Assembly (NCBI GenBank): GCA_903925005.1
Contig: CAIYDX010000163.1
Location: forward strand, 1 to 39,723
Source of the DNA: an uncultured Geobacteraceae bacterium
GTDB taxonomy: Bacteria > Desulfobacterota > Desulfuromonadia > Geobacterales > Pseudopelobacteraceae
Direction: 5' to 3'
DNA length: 39,723 nt
Of the stretch, positions 13,881-25,008 are shown piece by piece (the stretch's first letter is position 1; every line of letters begins with the position of its first letter). The notes under the pieces are model-generated. The model saw only the letters and a list, made by a program, of their open reading frames with translations. It searched no databases and was not told the origin of the DNA. The translations under genes were made by a program, and so were the position numbers.

Positions 13881-15635
13881 TTAATCCCGGTCCAGCGACT
13901 CCCTGACTTTCGCAAGCAGCGCCGGAACCGTGACCGGTTTGGTCAGAAAGCCGGCCCCCGCCTCTAACATTCCCTTCTGTTCGATGATGTCGGCGGTATA
14001 GCCGCTGGAGAAGAGCACCCGGACTTTCCCCCCCTCTTTCCTGATCGCGTCGAATACTTCGCGTCCGTTCATCCTGGGCATAACCACATCCATTAGAATG
14101 AGCTGAATCCGGCCGCTGTCGGCGTAATATTTTGCCAGCGCATCCTCGCCATTCACCGCTTCTATCACGTGATAGCCGTATTCATTCAGGGCATGGACCA
14201 TGAAACTTCTGGCGCCGTCATTGTCCTCGGCCAACAGGATCGTCTCCGTCCCTCCCACCATTTGCGCCGCCGGTTTGCTCACATGACTCGTCTCGTTTGG
14301 CGGCGCCAGCGGCAGATATATTTTGAAGCATGTTCCTTTGCCGATCTCGCTGTACACGTTTACTTCGCCGCCATGCTGCTTGATGATCCCGTAAACGATG
14401 GAGAGTCCCAAACCGGTCCCCTTGCCGATCTCTTTGGTCGTGAAGAACGGCTCGAAGATTCTCTGGCGGGTCGTCTCGTCGATTCCGCACCCGGTATCGG
14501 AAACCGAAATCATGGCATACGATCCGGGCTTGAGCGCCGAGCCGTGGAGCTCCTCCGCCAGTTCCAGGCGCTCCGTCATAAGGCTGAGTACCCCTCCGGT
14601 GGGCATGGCATCGCGGGCATTAACCGCCAGATTCATCAGCACCTGTTCGATCTGGCCGCAATCACCAATGATCACCAACTCTTCGGGGGAAAATGAACAG
14701 TGGAACTCGATATCCTCGCCGATTACCCGGCGCAGAATCTTGTCTATGGTCGTGACAATCTTGTTGATCTCCTCCGGCTTGGTCTCCATAGTCTGCTTGC
14801 GGCTAAAGGCCAGCAGGCTTTGGGTCAGCCTGGCGGCCGAATCGGCCGCTCTCAGGATATTATCGGCATAAAGGCGCAGGGGGGGATTTTCCGCCAGTTT
14901 GGTCTGCAGCAAGCCGCCGAAACCAATGATCGCTGTCAGGAGATTGTTGAAGTCGTGAGCCACACCTCCCGCGAGGGTGCCGATCGCTTCCATCTTCTGC
15001 GATTGCCTGAGCTGCTGTTCACTGGAGCTCAGTGCTTCCTGCGCTGTCTGCAGCTCCACAATTTTCTCTTCCAGGATAACGGCCTGCTCCTGGAGCTGTT
15101 CCTGCGATGCCTGGCGTTCGGCGATCTCATCTTCCAGCAGGCGGTTGGCAACCGACAGATCCATGGTACGTGCCTCGACCCGTGCCTCCAGCAGTTCGTT
15201 GGCCTCCTTCAGGCGGCGGTTAAGATCGCGGATACTCAGGTGCACCCCAACCCTGGCCAATAGCTCCTCCTGCTGGAACGGCTTGGTGACATAATCAACC
15301 GCACCCGCCTCCAACCCTTTTACCTTGTGCACGGTCTCGGCCAGGGCCGACATGAAGATCACCGGGATATCGCGGCAGCTCTGCAGGAGCTTCAATCTGC
15401 GGCAGGTTTCGTAGCCGTCCATGCCCGGCATCATGATATCCAGCAAGATCAGGTCGGGGCGGGCATAATCGGCGCGTTCGAGGGCGCTCTCGCCATCCTC
15501 GGCCATCAGGACGGTGTAGTTGAACCTGGTCAGGCAATCGCGGATCACGGCCAGGTTGTTGGCATCGTCGTCAACAGCCAGAATTATCGGTTCGCGTCCG
15601 TCTGTACAGTGTGCATTCTGGTCATCATGACTCAT
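13881..15635 (-). CDS. Response-regulator/histidine-kinase hybrid (REC-HisKA-HATPase-REC)
   Basis: Soluble signalling protein of 584 residues. An N-terminal receiver carries phospho-acceptor D66 in [12 protein letters not shown] coiled coil at about 135-215 leads to a HisKA domain with H227 in [11 protein letters not shown]. The HATPase domain (about 325-445) has [17 protein letters not shown] and GTGLGLS boxes. The C-terminal receiver carries D516 in LMDVVMP. The start at 15635 is chosen because GGAG lies seven bases upstream and the ATG overlaps the previous stop (ATGA); an earlier in-frame ATG at 15653 lies inside the upstream gene. It is the third gene of a coupled operon and probably takes phosphate from, or passes it to, the upstream hybrid kinase. 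No DNA-binding output domain is present. Confidence 0.92.
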
Positions 15636-17950
15636 ATCGCTTCTCCACGGCATCGTTTAACCAGTGCCAGAACGGCCTTGGTTTTGAAACTTCCGGCAAG
15701 CTCTTTCAACTTTCCGGCAAAAGTGCGGTAGCCGGCATCCCGCGTCTCCAGTCCGGCGGCCCAGCGCTCCACACCAGCCATATCTCCCCTCATGGCCAGG
15801 TTCAGCAGCTCATCCAGCTCGGCCGGCGGCGGGGTCGTCATCTCTCCGTCATCCAGCCCGGTGAACGTTTCCCTGGCCGGCAGGACGACCTCGACGCTTT
15901 CCCACTCGATCCCCATTCGTCTGCCGATCTTCTCCAGCAGCAGGTCGATGCGGATCGGCTTGATCACGAAATCGTCGCAGATCTTGATGAAATCTCCCTT
16001 GTGGCCGCTGTCGGTTACCGAGGCCGAGGCGCCGATGATCACGGTCCGGTCAAACTGCGGATCGGACCGTATCAGCCGGGTCGCTTCAAGCCCGTCCATC
16101 ACCGGCATCACCAGATCCATCAGCACCAGGTCCGGCTGCCGCTCGCGCAGCATGCCCAGCGCTTCCTCCCCGTTCGCTGCGGTATCGACCTTGAAACCGA
16201 GCGGTTCCAACAAGGAAACCAGCATCGAGGTGTTACCCACCGTATCGTCAACCACCAGGATGCGTTTGCGCTCGCCATGGTAGCCGGTCACGGAAATTTC
16301 GGTCTTCACCAGCGCTCGCTCCGGGTCGGACACCGGCTGCAGCACCAGCGCCATACTGAAGATACTCCCACTGTCGACCGTGCTCTCCAGGGTCAGGCTG
16401 CCATGCATCAGTTCCAGCAGGCGGCGGGTAATGTTCAGGCCGAGTCCGGTCCCCTCGCGCATCTGACCATCACCGGTTAACTGGGTAAACGGTTCAAAGA
16501 CAGCCTCCAGCTTGTCGTCCGGGATACCGACTCCGGTATCGATCACGTCGCAGCGAAGTGTGCCATCCCCCTCATCATACGCCACGCGCAGGGTCACGCT
16601 CCCCCGGCGGGTATACTTGACCGCGTTGGAGAGCAGGTTCAGCAGGATCTGGCGCAGTTTGCGCTCATCCCCGCGCACATAGGGGGGGAGCGGTGACAGC
16701 TCTTCGTAGAGGAAGCGGAGTTCCTTCTCTTCGGCTTTCAGCCGGGTCAGGTTAAACACCTGGCGCAGAAGGGCCGGGAGATCGAAGGGCATCTCCTCGA
16801 TATCCATCTTCCGGGCCTCGATCTTGCCGACATCGAGGATATCGTTGATCAGGGTCAACAGGTGCTCGCCGCTGCTCTGCATGACCCCAAGCTGCTGTTT
16901 TTGGGCTTCGGTCAGGTTTTCCTGATGCTTGAGGATCTGGGCATACCCCAAAATCGCATTCAACGGCGTGCGCAGTTCGTGGCTCATGCTCGACAGGAAG
17001 TCGCTCTTGGCGAGGTTGGCGGTCTCGGCCGCTACCTTGGCACTCTGCAGCTCCACCACGCCATTGGCGAACGCCCCGGTCAGATCGTTAACACCTTCCA
17101 CCAGCTTGCGCCACTCACCCTCGAACTGTCCGGCATCGCTGCGGCTGTCAAGGCGCCCCTCCCGTACTGCAACGATCATTCCGTCCGTCTCCAGCAAAAC
17201 CTTGCGGATGGTGTCGCGCATCGCGGAGAATGAGTTTGCCAGCGCTCCCACCTCGTCGTGCTGGTGGATATTGAACTCGCGGCTGAAATTGCCGTGGGAA
17301 ACGTCATCGGCCACCTTGACGATCTGGCGCAGCGGGCGGGTGGCTACCCCCATCAGGAAGAACGCCGCGAAACAGCTCGCCACGGCGAAGGCGAGCGACA
17401 GCGCGATGCCGCGCGCCACGATGATTCGCTCATTACTGTGCAGCGATGCCTTGGAAAAACCGATCCTGATCCAGCCGATGGTCTCCTTGACCTTCTTGCC
17501 GCCATCCAAGCCGCTGAGGATGTCGAAATCCTCCTGCGTCTTCTCGGTGAAGACCGGAGCGTAAAAGACAAAGGTGTCCTGTTCCTCTGTCATCGAAAGA
17601 ACGGGCGTCGTCGGAGGGGCGGTCAGGTGGTGGGTCAGCAGCTTGCCGTCGTGAAGCAGCTGTTCCATCCGGTTGTCGTAGAAGGTAACCGTCGCGACCT
17701 CGGAGTTGGATTTAAGGAAGGCTGCCGTGCTTTTTAATAGCTCCAGATTGCCGGAGAGGACCGGCAGTTCGCCGGTCTTGGTCGCCAGGGTCGTGATCGC
17801 CTCGGCGCGCTTGATGATCTCGCTCCTGAAAATCCCCTTGCCGACTCGGATCGACTCCCAGGTATGGAAGAACGACATTATCAGCAGGAGCGGGATCATG
17901 AAGAGCAGCGCCTTGATCCGGAAGGTCATTATCGGCCGCAACCTGTTCAT
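15632..17950 (-). CDS. Membrane hybrid sensor histidine kinase (HAMP-HisKA-HATPase-REC)
   Basis: Sensor kinase of 772 residues. Membrane helix 1 is at about 12-29, an extracytoplasmic sensor region at about 30-178 and membrane helix 2 at about 180-202. HAMP follows at about 203-255. HisKA has H324 in SMSHELRTPLNAILGY. HATPase at about 425-535 has NLLSNAVKYT, DTGVGIPDD and GTGLGL boxes. A receiver at about 562-680 has D612 in LMDLVMPVMDG. A helical C-terminal tail at about 705-772 resembles the domain often found after such receivers; I see no clear HPt histidine in it. Four-base overlaps couple it to the binding-protein gene upstream and the second kinase downstream. Confidence 0.92.
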   Translation of the reverse strand: MNRLRPIMTFRIKALLFMIPLLLIMSFFHTWESIRVGKGIFRSEIIKRAEAITTLATKTGELPVLSGNLELLKSTAAFLKSNSEVATVTFYDNRMEQLLHDGKLLTHHLTAPPTTPVLSMTEEQDTFVFYAPVFTEKTQEDFDILSGLDGGKKVKETIGWIRIGFSKASLHSNERIIVARGIALSLAFAVASCFAAFFLMGVATRPLRQIVKVADDVSHGNFSREFNIHQHDEVGALANSFSAMRDTIRKVLLETDGMIVAVREGRLDSRSDAGQFEGEWRKLVEGVNDLTGAFANGVVELQSAKVAAETANLAKSDFLSSMSHELRTPLNAILGYAQILKHQENLTEAQKQQLGVMQSSGEHLLTLINDILDVGKIEARKMDIEEMPFDLPALLRQVFNLTRLKAEEKELRFLYEELSPLPPYVRGDERKLRQILLNLLSNAVKYTRRGSVTLRVAYDEGDGTLRCDVIDTGVGIPDDKLEAVFEPFTQLTGDGQMREGTGLGLNITRRLLELMHGSLTLESTVDSGSIFSMALVLQPVSDPERALVKTEISVTGYHGERKRILVVDDTVGNTSMLVSLLEPLGFKVDTAANGEEALGMLRERQPDLVLMDLVMPVMDGLEATRLIRSDPQFDRTVIIGASASVTDSGHKGDFIKICDDFVIKPIRIDLLLEKIGRRMGIEWESVEVVLPARETFTGLDDGEMTTPPPAELDELLNLAMRGDMAGVERWAAGLETRDAGYRTFAGKLKELAGSFKTKAVLALVKRCRGEAI

Positions 17951-18831
17951 GGGTACGCCTTTCTGGCCATCCGCACAACCTCGTCCGGGATGCTGATGTT
18001 CATCTTGCGGGCCGTCCCCATATTCAGGAACAGCTCGAACTTGCGGGGGGGGGATGCGGGGAACTGTCCGACATTGCCGCTTTTCAAGGCTTTTGTCGCA
18101 TACTCGCCGATAACCTTGCCGACATTGGTCATATCGACGACTAGCGCCAGCAGCGCCCCCTCCTTGACATGCCGCTCGGAAATCCCCAAAAGCGGAATGC
18201 GCCGCCGGAAAGAGTGCAGATAGGCCTCTTCGAGGGCGGTGGCGTTCATGACGTTGTTGTCCGGCAAAAGCAGGATCGCATCGGCATTATCCAGCTGTTT
18301 GACCATACTGACGAACTCGACCATGCTTTTGACGGTGTGGGCGCTGACCGAGGCGGGAACGTTGCCGGCCAGCATATTCAGGAAGTCGCGGCTGGCCACC
18401 ACCGCTAACCGTCTCAACGCCGGCAGATGGTTACGCACCAGATCGGCGTATTCGCTGGCCGGGGTTGCCATATAGAAACCGGCGGTATTGGCGCGGCTGA
18501 TGGTCGGCGGGGTCACCACCATATCGTAAATTACCGGGATCGAAGGGGGGAGGTTCAGCGCCTCGGCCAGCGCCTCGCGCCCGAGCGCGATCACGACCCG
18601 CGCATTCTCCTGCTGCACGACGGCGGCGAGAGTGCCGCGCACGTCGGCCGGAGCAACGGTTCTGGTCGAGGCGCGCAGGGTCTTGTGCATCCCCTGGGTC
18701 ACTTCCATAACCGGCTTGAGTTGGGCGTCGGCGATTATCAACACCTCCGCCGCCCGGCAGGGAGCGGCGATCAGCAGGATGCCGAACAGGATATAAAGGA
18801 TGGCGTGGGGCACGGGGTACTTTCTCATCAA
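17947..18831 (-). CDS. Periplasmic binding protein (ABC_sub_bind/TrpX-like), kinase-coupled copy
   Basis: 294 residues. A signal sequence of about 1-27 ends near PCRAAE. A two-lobed periplasmic-binding fold follows: AEVLIIADAQLKPVMEV, VVIALGREALAEALNL, PVIYDMVVTPPTI, ADAILLLPDNNVMN and GALLALVVDMTNVGKVIGEY. This family (PF04392-like) normally supplies ligand to ABC importers, but no permease or ATPase partner is nearby. Its stop overlaps the start of a membrane sensor kinase by four bases, so I infer it delivers ligand to the kinase sensor domain. A close paralogue is encoded at 21949-22827. The ribosome-binding site is weak. The ligand is unknown. Confidence 0.82.
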   Translation of the reverse strand: MMRKYPVPHAILYILFGILLIAAPCRAAEVLIIADAQLKPVMEVTQGMHKTLRASTRTVAPADVRGTLAAVVQQENARVVIALGREALAEALNLPPSIPVIYDMVVTPPTISRANTAGFYMATPASEYADLVRNHLPALRRLAVVASRDFLNMLAGNVPASVSAHTVKSMVEFVSMVKQLDNADAILLLPDNNVMNATALEEAYLHSFRRRIPLLGISERHVKEGALLALVVDMTNVGKVIGEYATKALKSGNVGQFPASPPRKFELFLNMGTARKMNISIPDEVVRMARKAYP

Positions 18832-18897
18832 TAATATAAACTGCGCGACTATAGGGAATAATTAATAAAAGATCAATCAAAACAATGAAATTCCGAT

Positions 18898-18922
18898 GTA
18901 GGGGCGACCCGGTGGGTCGCCC
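18898..18922. repeat. REP element, single copy
   Basis: 25-base palindromic unit beginning GTAGGGGCGACCCGG and ending GGGTCGCCC. Spacer sequence related to that in the full elements follows, but no opposing copy does. It lies upstream of the kinase operon, in the 491-base region before the peptide gene. Confidence 0.85.
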
Positions 18923-19173
18923 TTGTTGCAATTGACAACCATGGCGGATATTGTATCGATGGCTGAAGGCCGGATAAGCGGGAAGCCAGTGCCCAAAATA
19001 GCACCGCTGCCTTCGCACCCTGACCCTTTACTTCATAAAAAGGTGATGTTCTTATGTACTCTCCATGATGTAAACTCAAAAGTATACTGCATACAATTTC
19101 CGTCCTAAATTATCACGCCAAATCCGATTGTTAAGCTCCTTTTGGCTCCGTGTGATAACGCTGCATTTTTTTA

Positions 19174-19202
19174 TTGACATAGTATTTAAATTCTGTTATA
19201 GG
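19174..19202 (+). promoter_or_regulatory. Strong promoter of the short cysteine peptide gene
   Basis: Perfect TTGACA (19174-19179), a 17-base spacer, then TATAGG (19197-19202). The predicted transcript begins near 19209, giving a leader of about 115 bases before the peptide's start codon. Confidence 0.65.
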
Positions 19203-19261
19203 TGCCCCGATTTAATTAAGAAGGTTCCCTGATGATTTGGTGGGGATTAACAAAGTTTTCA

Positions 19262-19291
19262 GCCGACCGGAGACGAGGCCGTCCCGGCGGC
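19262..19291 (+). other. Structured leader hairpin before the peptide gene
   Basis: GCCG-A-CCGG-A-GACG, loop AGGC, then CGTC-CCGG-CGGC: twelve perfect pairs with two single-A bulges on the 5' side. It ends 14 bases before the GAAGGAG ribosome-binding site. It is not followed by a T-tract, so it is not a terminator. It could affect mRNA stability, translation or ligand sensing; the known riboswitch classes I can recall do not fit. Confidence 0.6.
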
Positions 19292-19322
19292 ATAATAACC
19301 CGAAAGAAGGAGAAGAACAAAA

Positions 19323-19421
19323 ATGAAAAAAAACACCCTGGTAGTACTCGAAAAAGGCAACGATTGCGCATTTGACGGACCGACGGCATGCTGTGCGTTG
19401 GCGTTCGACATGCTTGTGTAA
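19323..19421 (+). CDS. Putative RiPP precursor, geopeptide-like, 32 residues
   Basis: Short reading frame with GAAGGAG ten bases before the ATG, a consensus promoter upstream and an intrinsic terminator about 28 bases after the TAA. It is thus a self-contained transcription unit. The peptide starts MKKNTLVVLEKGND and ends CAFDGPTACCALAFDMLV. The N-terminal half is charged, as in a leader. The C-terminal half holds C15, C23 and C24, as in a modified core. A radical SAM/SPASM protein is encoded 1 kb downstream on the same strand. NCBIfam/TIGRFAMs describe short Geobacter 'geopeptides' paired with a putative radical SAM maturase; membership here is my inference. The modification, processing site and function are unknown. 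Confidence 0.8.
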   Translation: MKKNTLVVLEKGNDCAFDGPTACCALAFDMLV

Positions 19422-19449
19422 TCGATTCTTTTTACAGATTCAGAAGGGA

Positions 19450-19475
19450 GGGGGGAGCGATCCCCCCTTTTTTTT
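19450..19475 (+). terminator. Intrinsic terminator of the peptide gene
   Basis: GGGGGGA (19450-19456), GCGA tetraloop, TCCCCCC (19461-19467), then eight T residues. It is very strong and separates the peptide gene from the downstream transposase and maturase genes. Confidence 0.92.
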
Positions 19476-19498
19476 GTGAAAATTCCCCAAAATAACCC

Positions 19499-19649
19499 GT
19501 AGGGGCGACCCGGTGGGTCGCCCTTATTGCAACAGGCAACAATGGTGCATATCGTCAAAACCGGTAGACACGTCTCTGTTTGCGCCCCTGTTGCAATGGG
19601 CAATGATGGCGGATGTTGCGCCGAGGGCGACCCACCGGGTCGCCCCTAC
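19499..19649. repeat. BIME: two opposed REP units, 151 bp
   Basis: The left unit (19499-19523) and right unit (19625-19649) are reverse complements, starting GTAGGGGCGACCC and ending GGGTCGCCCCTAC. Between them are further related words such as GCAACAATGGTG and GGGCAATGATGGCGGAT. The element lies immediately upstream of the RAYT gene. Confidence 0.9.
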
Positions 19650-19730
19650 ATTGCGTATTGCAAAAATGTTACGAATAACATAAGACCCTGCATATGCATT
19701 ATCGCCAGGATGCCTCCAAAGTGGAATGTT

Positions 19731-20291
19731 ATGACCTTTGATCTTGACATGCATCACCGCCATTCCATCCGCCTGAAGGATTACAAATATTCACAGGCCG
19801 GCGCTTATTTTGTCACACTCTGCGCATGGCAGAGAGAGTGTCTCTTTGGTGAGATGGTGAATGGAGAAATGATATTGAATGACATGGGTCGGATTATTGC
19901 CGAAGAATGGGCTAAAGCCGATACGGTCAGAAAGAATGTAGTTCTCGACGAATTTGTTGTCATGCCGAATCATTTTCATGGCATCATAGTTTTTACTGAA
20001 CCCGCTGTAACTGTCACCTATGGCGGCTGTTGCCAAAACCGGGCGACCCACCGGGTCGCCCCTACGGGGTCGGTGTCAGGTTCACTTGGGGCACTGTTGG
20101 GCCAGTTTAAATCGATAGCGACAAAGCGCATAAACAGATGCCGTAACAATCCCGGTTGCCCCGTCTGGCAGAGAAATTATTACGAACGTGTAATCAGGGA
20201 TGATAATGAATTGTCCCGTGCCCGTGAATATATCGTCAGCAATCCGTTAAAATGGGAATTGGATAAGGAAAACCCGATGCATTCCCCGTAG
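19731..20291 (+). CDS. REP-associated tyrosine transposase (RAYT, Y1/HUH)
   Basis: 186 residues from the chosen ATG; an in-frame ATG at 19710 is also possible. RAYTs are single-strand HUH endonucleases that process REP hairpins. The family start RHSIRLKDYKYSQAGAYFVT is at about 10-29. The metal-binding HUH motif is VMPNHFHGIIV, with H81 and H83. The nucleophile tyrosine lies in WQRNYYERVIRDD near 150-151, and NPLKW closes the domain. Residues about 103-112 (NRATHRVAPT) are encoded by a REP unit inside the gene, and the stop codon TAG is the second to fourth base of another REP. No IS ends are seen, so it is a domesticated-type RAYT rather than a classical IS200 element. Confidence 0.9.
   Translation: MTFDLDMHHRHSIRLKDYKYSQAGAYFVTLCAWQRECLFGEMVNGEMILNDMGRIIAEEWAKADTVRKNVVLDEFVVMPNHFHGIIVFTEPAVTVTYGGCCQNRATHRVAPTGSVSGSLGALLGQFKSIATKRINRCRNNPGCPVWQRNYYERVIRDDNELSRAREYIVSNPLKWELDKENPMHSP
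20041..20065. repeat. REP unit inside the RAYT coding sequence
   Basis: 25-base unit in the orientation GGGCGACCCACCGG to TCGCCCCTAC, in frame within the variable linker between the HUH and tyrosine motifs. It matches the right-hand REP units of the surrounding BIMEs exactly. Confidence 0.9.
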
Positions 20292-20436
20292 GGGCGACCC
20301 GGTGGGTCGCCCGGTTGCAAATGTCACCCATGGTGGATATCATCAATACAGACGCCCCGCCTCTGTTTGCGCCCTGGTTGCAATGGGCAACGATGGCGGA
20401 TGTTGCACCGAGGGCGACCCACCGGGTCGCCCCTAC
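20288..20436. repeat. BIME, 149 bp, between RAYT and radical SAM genes
   Basis: The left REP (20288-20312) supplies the TAG stop of the RAYT gene at 20289-20291. The right REP (20412-20436) ends 26 bases before the maturase ribosome-binding site. The internal spacer closely resembles those of the 19499 and 21776 elements. Confidence 0.9.
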
Positions 20437-20474
20437 AATTTGATTATCGCCCTTTTATACACGGAGGCCCAACC

Positions 20475-21779
20475 ATGCAGTTATCAAATTATCTGAAAAT
20501 CTACCCCTGTCCGGATCAGCCGGGGATGAATATGGTCTATTCCACGATCCGCTCGTCGGTCGTGCTGCTGCCGGACGACCTTCTGGACGCGGCCCGGAAC
20601 GGCACGCTGCCGGATGAGGAGCGGGACACCCTGGCCGGGCTCGGCATATTGACGGAGGACCGGGCGGCCGAGCGGGAACAGCTCCGGACCGTTTTCGATA
20701 TCCCCCGTCCGACCCGGCCGTTCAAGGCGATCGTCGTCCTCAACCTCGACTGCAACCTCGCCTGCCCCTACTGCTACGAGGCCGCCTTTCGCGGCAAAGA
20801 GTACATGAGCGGTGAAACCGCCGCACAGCTGGTCGAGACGCTCCGCCGCGACCGGATCGACAAGGGGCAGCCGGTCCAGCTCACCTTCTACGGCGGCGAA
20901 CCGCTCCTCTCCCTCGACCTGATTCGCGCGATCGCCGCGCCGCTGCAGGAGGCCGCCCGCTCGCGCGGGGTCGCGTTCACCTTCTCGCTGGTCACTAACG
21001 GCACGCTGCTGAACCGCGCCTGCGCCGAAGAGCTGGTCGCCCTCGGCCTCACCGGAGCCAAGATCACGATCGATGGCCCGGCCGAACTGCACAACCAAAG
21101 CCGCCCCTATGTTTCGGGGAACGGCAGCTACGAGGCGATAATGCGCAACGTGCTCGATATCTACGACATCGTCACGCTGCAGCTGGGGGGGAACTTCACC
21201 CAGGGCAACTACCGCGAATTTCCGCGCATGCTCGATGACCTGCTGGAACGCGGCATCGACCCGGCCAGGGTCGGCGCGATGCTGTTCGCTCCGGTGGTGC
21301 CCAAAGCTGGGGAGAAGGTCGTAAGCGACTTCAACACCGACTGCGCCTGCACGTATGAACCGTGGCTGATCGAGGCCGGTATCGAACTGCGCGAAGAGAG
21401 CTTGAAGCGCGGCTTTCCGGCCCCGAAGCCGAGGCTTTCGGCCTGCATGGTTGAGCTGGAACATGAGCTGGTGATCAACATCGACGGGTCGTACTACAAA
21501 TGCCCCGCCTTCATCGCCTACCCGCATTTACGGATCGGTTCGCTGGCCGAGGGGATCGCGGCTTACCGCGAGTCGCACAACATGGATATCTGGAAAACGG
21601 ACGAATGCCTGGATTGCCCCTACCTGCCGATCTGCTTCGGCGGCTGCCGCCAGCTGACGCTGCTCCGCAACGGCGCGATCGACGCGGTGGACTGCCGCCG
21701 GGATTATTATGATGCGGTGCTGGAAAGGGTCATCAGGCAGGATCTGGAGTATCAGCGGACGAAATCCACCGAACCGTAA
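20475..21779 (+). CDS. Radical SAM/SPASM peptide maturase (putative geopeptide maturase)
   Basis: 434 residues; GGAGG lies seven bases before the ATG at 20475. An N-terminal region of about 1-80 precedes the radical SAM core and could be a peptide-recognition domain. The 4Fe-4S motif CNLACPYC places C93, C97 and C100 for SAM cleavage. GGEP follows at 140-143. The SPASM domain has seven cysteines (C324, C343, C378, C381, C387, C391, C407) in the canonical arrangement, including CLDCPYLPICFGGC, for two auxiliary clusters. SPASM enzymes typically cross-link or otherwise modify ribosomal peptides; the likely substrate is the three-cysteine peptide at 19323. The coding sequence looks GC-rich compared with the peptide region. 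Its TAA lies within a REP unit. The precise chemistry is unknown. Confidence 0.9.
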   Translation: MQLSNYLKIYPCPDQPGMNMVYSTIRSSVVLLPDDLLDAARNGTLPDEERDTLAGLGILTEDRAAEREQLRTVFDIPRPTRPFKAIVVLNLDCNLACPYCYEAAFRGKEYMSGETAAQLVETLRRDRIDKGQPVQLTFYGGEPLLSLDLIRAIAAPLQEAARSRGVAFTFSLVTNGTLLNRACAEELVALGLTGAKITIDGPAELHNQSRPYVSGNGSYEAIMRNVLDIYDIVTLQLGGNFTQGNYREFPRMLDDLLERGIDPARVGAMLFAPVVPKAGEKVVSDFNTDCACTYEPWLIEAGIELREESLKRGFPAPKPRLSACMVELEHELVINIDGSYYKCPAFIAYPHLRIGSLAEGIAAYRESHNMDIWKTDECLDCPYLPICFGGCRQLTLLRNGAIDAVDCRRDYYDAVLERVIRQDLEYQRTKSTEP

Positions 21780-21926
21780 GGGCGACCCGGTGGGTCGCCC
21801 TTTGTTGCAACTGTCACCCATGGTGCAAATCGTCAAAACGGTTGCCCCGCCTGCGTTTGCACCCTTGTTGTAATGGGCAATGATGGTGGATGTTGCACCT
21901 AGGGTGACCCACCGGGTCGCCCCTAC
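21776..21926. repeat. BIME, 151 bp, downstream of the maturase
   Basis: The left REP (21776-21800) reads GTAAGGGCGACCC, one base changed from consensus, and contains the maturase stop codon. The right REP (21902-21926) also has one change (GGGTGACCC). It separates the convergent maturase and binding-protein genes. Confidence 0.9.
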
Positions 21927-21948
21927 ATTTTGATTTGGTGTGCGGGAT

Positions 21949-22827
21949 CTACGGATACACCCGCTTCGCCATCCTCACCATCTCATCCGGAATATCGATC
22001 TTCATCCGGCGGGCCGTGGCTGTGTTCAGGTAGATATCGAATTTACGCGGCGGGGATGGGGGGAACTGGCCTATATCGATCCCCTTCAGCGATTTGGCGG
22101 CGGCTGCGCCGATCAGCTTGCCGACGTTGACCATATCCACCACCAGCGCGACGAGCGCCCCTTCCTTGACGTTGTGCTCAGAAATCCCCAATAGTGGAAT
22201 CCCCTTGCGAAACGACATCAGGTAGGCCTCATTCAGCGCGGCGGTCGTCAGCAGCGCTGTGTCAGGCAGCAGCAGGATCGCGTCGGCGTCGTCCATCCGC
22301 CGCATCGTCTCGACGAACTCCGAGGTGTCGCGGACGGTGTTGGCTGCCGCATCCCCCCGGCCGAGGAGGGATAGCTGGTCGCGGCTCCCGACGACCGTCA
22401 CCTGCCGGATCGAGCGGAGGTGCTTTCTGATCAGATCGGTGTATTCCCTGACCGGTGTGGCCAGGTAGAAGCCGGTGGTGTTCGGGCGGGTGATGACCGG
22501 CGGGGTGACCACCATGTCGAAGATCACCGGGATGCCGGTCGGGAGCGCCAGCGCCTCGGCCAGCGCCTCTTTCCCGAGCGCAACGACAACACGCGCCCGT
22601 TCGCGCTTGACGATCTCCGCCAGCCCCCGCTTCGCCTCATCCGGCGAGATAGCCCGCAGCGAACCGCCGAGGCTCTTCCTGATGCCGGAGATGATCTCCA
22701 TCGCGGGCCTGAGCTGGCTGTCGGCGACCACCAGCACCTCGGCGGCGAGGGAGCGTGAGGGGATAAGCGCAGTCAAAATAAGTACGGCAAGGAGGAGCAG
22801 CGGGAGCGGTATCGATTGTCTTTGCAT
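21949..22827 (-). CDS. Periplasmic binding protein (ABC_sub_bind/TrpX-like), second copy
   Basis: 292 residues. A signal sequence of about 1-29 ends near SRSLAAE. It is collinear with the protein at 17947-18831 over its whole length (AEVLVVADSQLRPAMEI, VVVALGKEALAEAL, PVIFDMVVTPPVI, NVGKLIGAAAAKSL and an MKIDIPDEMVRMAKRVYP tail), so the two are paralogues. Unlike the first copy it is not coupled to a kinase. It lies downstream of a TonB-dependent receptor on the same strand, with a BIME between them. It may capture the ligand brought in by that receptor. No ABC permease or ATPase is nearby, and the ligand is unknown. Confidence 0.82.
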   Translation of the reverse strand: MQRQSIPLPLLLLAVLILTALIPSRSLAAEVLVVADSQLRPAMEIISGIRKSLGGSLRAISPDEAKRGLAEIVKRERARVVVALGKEALAEALALPTGIPVIFDMVVTPPVITRPNTTGFYLATPVREYTDLIRKHLRSIRQVTVVGSRDQLSLLGRGDAAANTVRDTSEFVETMRRMDDADAILLLPDTALLTTAALNEAYLMSFRKGIPLLGISEHNVKEGALVALVVDMVNVGKLIGAAAAKSLKGIDIGQFPPSPPRKFDIYLNTATARRMKIDIPDEMVRMAKRVYP

Positions 22828-22899
22828 GGGTGGTTTAACTCTTTCTGTCTGGTTGTGCGTGATGTCACGACTATTTCGCCGGGTGCGCGATTAAAAAAC

Positions 22900-22985
22900 G
22901 TAGGGGCGACCCGGTGGGTCGCCCTGGTGCAATGGGCAGCGATGGTGGATGTAGCATCGATGGCGACCCGCCGGGTCGCCCCTAC
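22900..22985. repeat. Short BIME, 86 bp
   Basis: The left REP (22900-22924) and right REP (22962-22985, CCGCCGGG variant) have a reduced spacer of about 37 bases. It lies between the second binding protein and the TonB receptor. Confidence 0.88.
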
Positions 22986-23193: not shown

Positions 23194-25008
23194 CTACGGG
23201 GCGGGCAAGCCTGCCGAGGCAACGTAATCCCACCAGACGTAGCGGCCGGTCAGGAGCGTCGAGAACGAGCGGCGGTCGTCGTACTTGATCCCGGCCAGCC
23301 AGGAGTAGGTGTCGAAGTACGGATTGGCATAACCGTTCGGCACGGTGTCTTCCCTGACATGGGCGTAGGCATGCCCGAGGTTGAGCGACAGGTTGTAGAA
23401 CGGCACCGAGCTCGCCTCCAGTTCGTACCCCTGGCGGGTTACTTTCCCTTGATTAATGTACGCCGAGGGCTGTGCCGTTGTTGCCGGAGGTTGAAAGAGC
23501 GCGTTTGAGGTCTCGTGCCGGAAGAGGGTCCCCTTCAGATTGACCAGGTTGGCCAGGCCGGATTCGAGCCCCGCCTGGTACGACCAGCCGTACTCGGCCT
23601 TCAGCGCGCTGTTGGCGGTCAAATACGGCCCCCCACCCGCGATATAGCTGAGCGGCGGCGCCGTGAAGCCGCGCGCCGCGGAGGCGCGGGCGACGGTATG
23701 TTCGGCGAGCTCGCAGGTCGCGCCGAGGCTCGGGCTGTAAAAACTGCCGGTCAGGTTGTCGTGGTCGAGGCGGATGCCAGGGGTGACCGCGAACGGCCCG
23801 AACTCGACTGTGTCGTTAGCGAAAATGCCCCATTTATCGAGTTTGGAATTGATCAGCACGGATGCCGGGAAGCCTCCGGCCTGGAAGAGCGGCCCGGCGT
23901 TGGTTGTCTGATCCATCGTGCCGTGGCTCGCCTCCCCACCCACCGTCAGGGTCTGGACGCCGCTGCTCCAGGTGGCGCGCAGGTCGCCGCCGAGCGTCTG
24001 CTCATCGACAAGGTTCTGGACGCGGAGTTGGCCGGGGGAGCGGGGAAAGGTGGAGAGGAAATAGACCGGCTGATCAAAATGGGAGTTGAGCAGGTGGACT
24101 CCTCCCCGCACGGTCAATTCGGGGGTCGCGCGGTATTCGACGGCGCCGTTCAGGGAGCGGGTACTCAGGAAGGTCCTGCCACTGACGAACGCGGCCGGAA
24201 CGGCGCCGGCGTTCTGCTCCGGATCGCTGAAGCTGCCGCTGATCGTGATGTCGAGGTCGCGGGTCGGGGTCAGGAGCAGCTTGCCGAAGACGCTGGTGCG
24301 GCGGAAGTCGCGGTTGTTGACCAGCCCCTCCGAGTTTGTCTGCCCGGCGTAGAGGTAGTAGCCGAGCGGGCCGTTCTTGCCGCGCAGCTCGCCGGCGTAA
24401 TCGCGGGAGCCGGCCTCGCCGTACGAGCCGCTCAGCATGCCGTTCGGCACTGTGCTATCTCCGGTGCTCCGGGTGATGATGTTGACGACCCCCCCCAGCG
24501 CCGATCCCCAGGCGGACGAGGCGGCCCCCTTGATGATCTCGATCCGCTCGACGATCCGGAGCGGGATGAAGCTGGTCTCGGCGTTGCCGGAGGAGAGGAA
24601 GTTAATCTGCATGCCGTCCAGCAGCACGGTCACATGGCGGGGTTCAGACCCCTGGATATGGAACTGGGCGGCCGACATGTATTCATTGGTTCCGAAGTCC
24701 GTGAAAAGGCCGGGGACGCGGGCCAGCACTTCGGCGACGCTGTTCGCGTTCATCACCTCGATATCCTTGGCGGTGATGACGGTCATGTTCTCGGCCACCT
24801 GGGTGATCGGTTTTTCGCTTCGGGTGGCGGTCTGAACGTACAGCTCCTTCTCTTCCCAGAACATCAGCAGGTCGTCCTGCGCCGGTTCGGCCAGCGCCAA
24901 CTGCGTCGGTTCCGCCGCTGTGCCGGTTTGTGGGGTACAGAGCAGCGCCGTTCCAAGCAGGGACGCCGCCATCAACCGATTGATCCATCTGTTGCCGTGT
25001 CGTCTCAT
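23194..25008 (-). CDS. TonB-dependent outer-membrane receptor, ended early by an amber codon
   Basis: 604 residues to the TAG; 661 if read through. A signal sequence covers about 1-32. The plug domain at about 50-170 includes KPITQVAENMTVITAKDIE, the VLLDGMQI and GAASSAWGSALGGVVNIIT landmarks. The barrel covers the rest. GGAGG lies six bases before the ATG. The barrel lacks its final strands because of the TAG; the missing end is encoded in frame at 23020-23193. Such receptors import cobalamin, siderophores or other large ligands using TonB energy. The neighbours CobO, a B12-binding mutase domain and a binding protein make cobalamin one candidate, but nothing in the sequence proves it. Confidence 0.85.
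   Translation of the reverse strand: MRRHGNRWINRLMAASLLGTALLCTPQTGTAAEPTQLALAEPAQDDLLMFWEEKELYVQTATRSEKPITQVAENMTVITAKDIEVMNANSVAEVLARVPGLFTDFGTNEYMSAAQFHIQGSEPRHVTVLLDGMQINFLSSGNAETSFIPLRIVERIEIIKGAASSAWGSALGGVVNIITRSTGDSTVPNGMLSGSYGEAGSRDYAGELRGKNGPLGYYLYAGQTNSEGLVNNRDFRRTSVFGKLLLTPTRDLDITISGSFSDPEQNAGAVPAAFVSGRTFLSTRSLNGAVEYRATPELTVRGGVHLLNSHFDQPVYFLSTFPRSPGQLRVQNLVDEQTLGGDLRATWSSGVQTLTVGGEASHGTMDQTTNAGPLFQAGGFPASVLINSKLDKWGIFANDTVEFGPFAVTPGIRLDHDNLTGSFYSPSLGATCELAEHTVARASAARGFTAPPLSYIAGGGPYLTANSALKAEYGWSYQAGLESGLANLVNLKGTLFRHETSNALFQPPATTAQPSAYINQGKVTRQGYELEASSVPFYNLSLNLGHAYAHVREDTVPNGYANPYFDTYSWLAGIKYDDRRSFSTLLTGRYVWWDYVASAGLPAP

Follow-up and report, generated by a model that had tools for sequence, protein, structure and literature searches.

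Geopeptide loci and their neighboring receptor and sensor genes, viewed from an uncultured Geobacteraceae bacterium

What is a geopeptide made for? The family is catalogued by NCBIfam as a peptide (TIGR04229) and a radical SAM/SPASM maturase (TIGR04280), yet no paper naming geopeptide, TIGR04229 or TIGR04280 was found in a search outside of which most subscription journals lay, so that product and role seem open. The question is raised by a 39,723-nt stretch of DNA from an uncultured Geobacteraceae bacterium (contig CAIYDX010000163.1; here called the window), in which a 32-residue peptide with three cysteines is encoded at 19323–19421, followed on the same strand by a radical SAM/SPASM enzyme at 20475–21779. 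A first-pass annotation of this DNA had proposed a putative locus for a ribosomally synthesized and post-translationally modified peptide (RiPP) and had brought up the name geopeptide, which protein-family collections indeed hold in these two models. The two genes almost certainly form a geopeptide-type precursor and maturase pair. Loci of this kind are linked to genes for a TonB-dependent receptor (TBDT) and a binding protein, which is the main new result of this analysis and may already be known to the NCBIfam curators. The linkage with receptor and sensor suggests that the cell takes the product up and senses it from outside.

The peptide–maturase pair and its linkage to receptor and sensor genes

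Judged by its sequence, the enzyme is a geopeptide maturase: it scores 624.8 bits against TIGR04280 over residues 1–427 (cut-off 400; next-best NCBIfam model 144) and carries both the CxxxCxxC motif and the seven-cysteine SPASM pattern. Among 149 maturase homologs, these occur by pattern in 146 and 138, respectively, and a 22-sequence alignment has 59 invariant columns, the seven SPASM cysteines among them. Five maturases of the same class are 76–84% identical to that of the window, and a sixth, a fragment at a contig end (L064), is 77% identical over its part. The proposed precursor gene is a real open reading frame with an ATG start, translated as MKKNTLVVLEKGNDCAFDGPTACCALAFDMLV. Six same-class relatives, all from the window's own genus, encode peptides of the form M[KN][TK][SN][TS]LVVLEKGNDCAF[ED]G[PE]...ACC located 117–215 nt upstream of the maturase, and among 141 genomes from the window's order, 7 carry the coding motif of the class (EKGNDCAF), each of them once. 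The ratio of nonsynonymous to synonymous substitution rates (dN/dS) of the peptide gene is 0.19–0.50 over six pairs (0.19–0.39 apart from one pair at 0.50), a rough figure from few sites.

The pairing recurs in a survey of 154 non-redundant loci, comprising the window, 60 loci from relatives, 31 from across the phylum (the genomes over the cut-off among 395 sampled) and a named set, the best 80 of a longer list, of which 62 were new. Maturases were testable at 150 loci, upstream DNA being incomplete at L059, L184, L196 and L205, and a related short peptide with CC or CTC was found upstream at 138 of them; a further call, at L061, was dropped as spurious (139 to 138). The 12 loci lacking an accepted peptide (L060, L061, L062, L147, L153, L155, L187, L197, L226, L230, L231 and L240) include three near-misses: a single-cysteine candidate (L187), a CKC candidate (L226) and a 79-residue CC peptide that exceeds the length limit (L197). 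Among 137 distinct peptides, CC occurs in 135 and CTC in two; acceptance demanded one or the other, so the conservation of CC is partly built in, and tail and spacing are the free observations. The tail after CC spans 6–16 residues (median 9; selection favored tails of 3–22), an arginine stands nine positions past the first cysteine in 45% of the 120 peptides long enough, and the core outside CC varies widely among classes. Within 400 nt upstream, a geopeptide-like frame precedes 55 of 60 maturases, whereas the opposite strand gives 0 of 60 and 20 shuffles average 0.05 of 60; the 60 include the window, whose own peptide lies beyond 400 nt, and the motif was derived from the same loci, which makes this a check against chance, not an independent discovery. 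A terminator-like hairpin lies between peptide and maturase at 95 of 138 loci; mononucleotide shuffles give 3.0 on average. Hosts among the named loci include Geobacter, Geomonas, Oryzomonas, Geotalea, Nitrospirae and Desulfobulbaceae, with weaker matches in Spirochaetes and Omnitrophota, and the window genome itself (a bin 94.9% complete with 6.2% contamination) holds four geopeptide systems with different cores. Two variants deserve mention: Nitrospirae loci L192, L197, L202, L206 and L228 have Lys/Ala-rich leaders before the CC core, with peptides of up to 79 residues, and L077 has an additional geopeptide next to a receptor gene, 1.9 kb upstream of its maturase.

The survey thus supports the RiPP locus proposed by the first-pass annotation, with some corrections in detail. 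Of the two positions put forward there as conserved, CC stands, within the limit given above, and GP does not: it is present in 6 of 7 window-class peptides (GE in L054) and absent from many other classes. Likewise, of the NCBIfam geopeptide models suggested as a test, the maturase model recognizes its target and the peptide model does not. Searched with TIGR04229 (cut-off 30), the window peptide gives no match up to E 1, and the same-class peptide of L041 reaches 14.0 bits (E 0.035), below the cut-off; among seven peptides tried from relatives, those of L069 (40.5) and L077 (31.3) lie above it.

The linkage was counted at 128 loci, namely the 151 with a CxxxCxxC-bearing maturase minus 23 with less than 2.6 kb upstream; L060–L062, which do not bear the motif, were left out. 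Within about 5 kb, annotated frames place a TBDT beside 120 of the 128 maturases (relatives 49/50, phylum 24/27, named 47/51). A six-frame recheck, covering the eight misses and 20 controls only, found receptors at L147, L156 and L159, raising the count to 123. Over the same distance, an ABC_sub_bind protein is found beside at least 103 of the 128 and a kinase beside 75. Control radical SAM loci from the same genomes (20 sub-cut-off matches out of a longer list, 6.7–11 kb each) have a TBDT in 0/20, a binding protein in 0/20 and a kinase in 3/20. The gene set is kept while its order changes: a kinase–binding protein–receptor run may diverge from peptide–maturase, a receptor–peptide–maturase run may have a divergent binding protein–kinase pair, and in Nitrospirae a single run reads receptor–peptide–maturase–binding protein–kinase–response regulator. 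Within the window genome, the four best homologs of the window TBDT, itself included, adjoin the four geopeptide maturases, and the score falls from 138 to 69 bits between the fourth and the fifth. Distances among maturases and among TBDTs correlate over 92 loci (Spearman 0.64, reached in 0 of 200 permutations), a correlation for which shared ancestry could suffice. In the window, the gene of a hybrid kinase, which resembles the TorS and LuxQ models at scores below cut-off, overlaps the binding protein gene. Among the scanned neighbors of the window and L069, neither an ABC permease nor an ABC ATPase was seen, which points to sensing.

A natural control is provided by the paralogs L060, L061 and L062, from three genomes of the genus, which lack the radical SAM cysteines (CxxxCxxC) as well as a recognizable peptide. 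They keep the seven-cysteine SPASM pattern, evolve with a dN/dS of 0.25–0.31 (versus 0.11–0.19 in eight pairs of motif-bearing enzymes), and have a kinase and a sigma-54 regulator adjacent; at L060, a short frame lacking cysteines is kept at the expected site, as judged by eye. Enzyme motif and peptide cysteines therefore go together, as expected if the maturase acts on the peptide, and these three related sequences count as one event, not three. A GTG-started frame (MEGFGHTCC...) common to the three loci counts against reading them as geopeptide-less; it was rejected as a peptide, since at L065 and L082 the same DNA is intergenic and precedes the true peptides.

Signals and an insertion in the window

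Promoter, ribosome-binding site and terminator, which the first-pass annotation took as signs of a genuine short gene, are all borne out in the sequence (Table 1). A TTGACA...TATAAA pair stands at the equivalent site in 6/6 same-class relatives; the window promoter is missing from a strict consensus scan because that scan requires T as the sixth base of the second hexamer. The hairpin and T-run 3′ of the peptide frame folds at −25.1 kcal/mol (z −4.6), such sites being no commoner in the region than in shuffles. The 5′ leader hairpin (−21.6 kcal/mol, z −4.5) is seen in 7 aligned leaders, and its exact pattern occurs in 4 of 39 searched genomes, one copy each and always before a window-class peptide gene; as a wider RNA motif it was rejected, the pattern being restricted to this gene class. 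RNAalifold gave no covariation support for it (term +0.08; both sides changed in 1 of 10 pairs), and an Rfam search of 17900–22900 returned nothing near the gathering score, leaving the hairpin outside Rfam families.

Table 1. Features around the geopeptide locus in the window
Feature	Position	Strand	Basis
Second kinase with receiver domains	13881..15653	-	Pfam
Hybrid histidine kinase with HAMP and receiver domain	15632..17950	-	Pfam
ABC_sub_bind (PF04392) substrate-binding protein, divergent	17947..18831	-	Pfam
Promoter TTGACA (19174-19179), 17 nt, TATAGG (19197-19202)	19174..19202	+	counterpart in 6/6 same-class relatives
5′ leader hairpin of window-class geopeptide genes	19262..19291	+	fold and aligned leaders
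Ribosome-binding site AAGGAG of peptide gene	19307..19312	+	sequence
Geopeptide-like precursor gene, 32 aa, three-Cys class	19323..19421	+	six same-class relatives, one genus
Terminator or attenuator between precursor and maturase	19441..19476	+	fold, hairpin and T-run
REP-like palindromes and RAYT-like gene (19731-20291)	19503..20432	+	NF047646, palindromes
Ribosome-binding site GGAGG of maturase	20463..20467	+	sequence
Geopeptide radical SAM/SPASM maturase, 434 aa	20475..21779	+	TIGR04280, motifs, predicted model
Second ABC_sub_bind protein, 56% identical to first	21949..22827	-	Pfam, comparison
TBDT	23194..25008	-	Pfam

The seven-cysteine enzyme does lie 1 kb from the peptide gene, as the first-pass annotation stated; what that description overlooked is the insertion in between and the receptor and sensor genes on the flanks. 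The inserted gene matches NF047646, the family of REP-associated tyrosine transposases (RAYT), with 69.1 bits, under the cut-off of 80, which leaves it outside the family proper; we call it RAYT-like because of this match and the palindromes that surround it. The REP-like palindrome (GGGCGACCC...GGGTCGCCC) has ten copies in the window (≤2 mismatches), five of them in the peptide–maturase gap and all within 18902–22981 (18.9–23.0 kb), against none in 100 shuffles. The insertion is absent from 6/6 same-class relatives, where only a terminator and the short spacer of 117–215 nt separate the two genes. By this comparison of sequences, the gap of about 1 kb is a secondary local insertion and not the normal arrangement. 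Elsewhere in the survey, at L146, L151, L201 and L207, the geopeptide gene lies 1.6–1.8 kb upstream of the maturase.

What the product may do

The best PDB matches of the AlphaFold2 maturase model (pLDDT 84.8) are 5why and 5wgg (E 3e-20, TM 0.65), whose entry titles describe a thioether-forming RiPP enzyme that we take to be CteB. The first 75 residues are predicted to form a small separate domain of three strands and three helices, a build also seen in leader-binding domains. The PapB model ranks third among the NCBIfam matches of the maturase, and PapB forms Cys-Asp thioethers (PMC9413430). Because of this closest fold and of PapB chemistry, a thioether is our leading guess for the modification, to be taken as a guess.

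From these observations, we consider it fairly probable that the locus makes a RiPP of the geopeptide kind whose product is captured by the adjacent TBDT and sensed. The precursor would be made in excess over the maturase because a terminator lies between their genes. Its N-terminal VVLEKG stretch would be read by the N-terminal domain of the maturase, which would then act on the short C-terminal portion surrounding the Cys-Cys pair, a thioether cross-link being the most likely modification. Once released, the product would act outside the cytoplasm, where the neighboring TBDT could capture it, either by itself or loaded with a metal or some other ligand, and the periplasmic binding protein and hybrid kinase may read its arrival. 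That the product is the ligand of both receptor and sensor has, in our view, slightly better than an even chance. More tentative, and a little short of even, is the general proposal that geopeptides are one arm of a self-contained circuit of making, release, recapture and sensing in Desulfobacterota, Nitrospirota and beyond, the CC-peptide being the specific ligand of its own TBDT and sensor and a metallophore or signal of a type not described before. The linkage makes the role testable, because the receptor, the binding protein and the kinase can each serve as bait for the product; if the proposal is true, metal-reducing and groundwater bacteria would turn out to make a peptide metallophore or signal that is new.

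Several observations weigh against capture and sensing. A kinase was found near only 75 of the 128 maturases, and no TBDT was found within about 5 kb at five: L231, L232, L234 and L240, which are distant homologs (about 26–31% identity), and L064, whose sequence ends on the side where its class carries the TBDT. No exporter or peptidase was recognized among the neighbors scanned by Pfam, eight further proteins adjoining distant maturases had nothing in common in Pfam, and inspection of the peptides by eye revealed no obvious signal sequence. The RAYT-like insertion could have uncoupled the peptide and maturase genes in the window. Sigma-54 sites are not clearly enriched before the receptors, though a sigma-54 regulator is often nearby: sites with at least 9 of 10 matches precede 0/53 and 1/66 receptors (shuffles 0.35 and 0.55), and with at least 8 of 10 matches 4/53 and 3/66 (shuffles 1.6 and 2.6). 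Finally, the same genome holds an orphan set of TBDT, binding protein and hybrid kinase (L265, 4219–10029) at which neither peptide nor maturase was found; receptors of this type may therefore serve other ligands. Two further pieces of this genome are related: L266, at a contig end, encodes a TBDT, binding protein and kinase 57–68% identical to geopeptide-linked ones and is probably what remains of a truncated fifth geopeptide locus, and L267 has a binding protein and a piece of a kinase only.

As a special case of capture and sensing, the product may be a metallophore in the manner of methanobactin, its vicinal cysteines, modified or not, binding a soft metal, the loaded peptide returning via the receptor, and binding protein and kinase serving as a gauge. 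The prominence of CC and the narrow range of tail lengths fit this possibility, which we hold tentatively, as do methanobactin operons, where a MATE exporter, a TonB-dependent transporter or both accompany the precursor (PMC3621798). Set against it are the wide variation of the core outside CC and the flanking proteins scanned, among which neither a metal-handling gene nor an exporter was seen.

It is less likely that the product is a signal, an autoinducer that the receptor brings to the periplasm, where binding protein and hybrid kinase sense it. LuxP/LuxQ and TorT/TorS are sensor pairs of this build, and the overlapping genes and TorS/LuxQ resemblance in the window are in keeping with it, as are the missing ABC permease and ATPase and the four systems with different cores in one genome; the lack of any export gene seen and the orphan sensor set L265 are not. 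Marginally more doubtful is an intracellular role for the product, as redox cofactor or regulator, with receptor and sensor merely timing its production. This would explain why exporter, peptidase and signal sequence are missing from what was scanned, but the TBDT is present at 123 of 128 loci even as gene order changes, which suggests a tie beyond shared regulation. It is improbable that the product is a toxin or bacteriocin aimed at relatives, with the receptor as its entry port: some classes have hydrophobic tails, paralogs vary, and some microcins enter via TonB-dependent receptors (PMC8183687), but the receptor sits in the producer itself, and no immunity or export gene was recognized among the proteins scanned. 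That 19323–19421 is a chance frame, the maturase having some other substrate, as a peptide matching no family model, 1 kb away behind a transposase, might have implied, is refuted by conservation, with the same motif close before the maturase in six relatives and 55 of 60 against 0.05 in shuffles.

Comparison with known systems

Four known systems come closest to this locus. The first is the geopeptide system itself (TIGR04229/TIGR04280), with which the window shares a maturase over the cut-off and a short CC peptide of the VLxxG...CC plan, upstream on the same strand; it differs in the third cysteine of its peptide (NDCAF), in the score of that peptide below the family model, and in the RAYT-like insertion before the maturase. 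CteB and the other ranthipeptide maturases (SCIFF, PapB) share the radical SAM and SPASM domains and provide the best fold match; the defining bond of ranthipeptides and sactipeptides is a thioether that joins Cys to a carbon of another residue. The SCIFF precursor has six cysteines, whereas geopeptide substrates have two or three, with a CC pair in most, and the window peptide has three. Nor does the window peptide contain the CX3D motif described in PMC9413430.

Methanobactin operons likewise link a short precursor to a TonB-dependent transporter (PMC3621798). Here, in contrast, the maturase is a radical SAM enzyme and not MbnB/MbnC, no MbnB-type synthase being found among seven neighboring proteins scanned by Pfam (this search did not extend to the rest of the genome), and a kinase and binding protein stand in place of FecIRA-like control. 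In literature combining TonB-dependent, SPASM, RiPP and Geobacter, no relevant paper was found among those listed, PMC4289311, the one with Geobacter, included. The sensor genes resemble the TorT/TorS and LuxP/LuxQ pairs, in that the gene of a periplasmic binding protein overlaps that of a hybrid kinase; unlike in those pairs, the binding protein here belongs to PF04392 and is linked to a RiPP and a TBDT.

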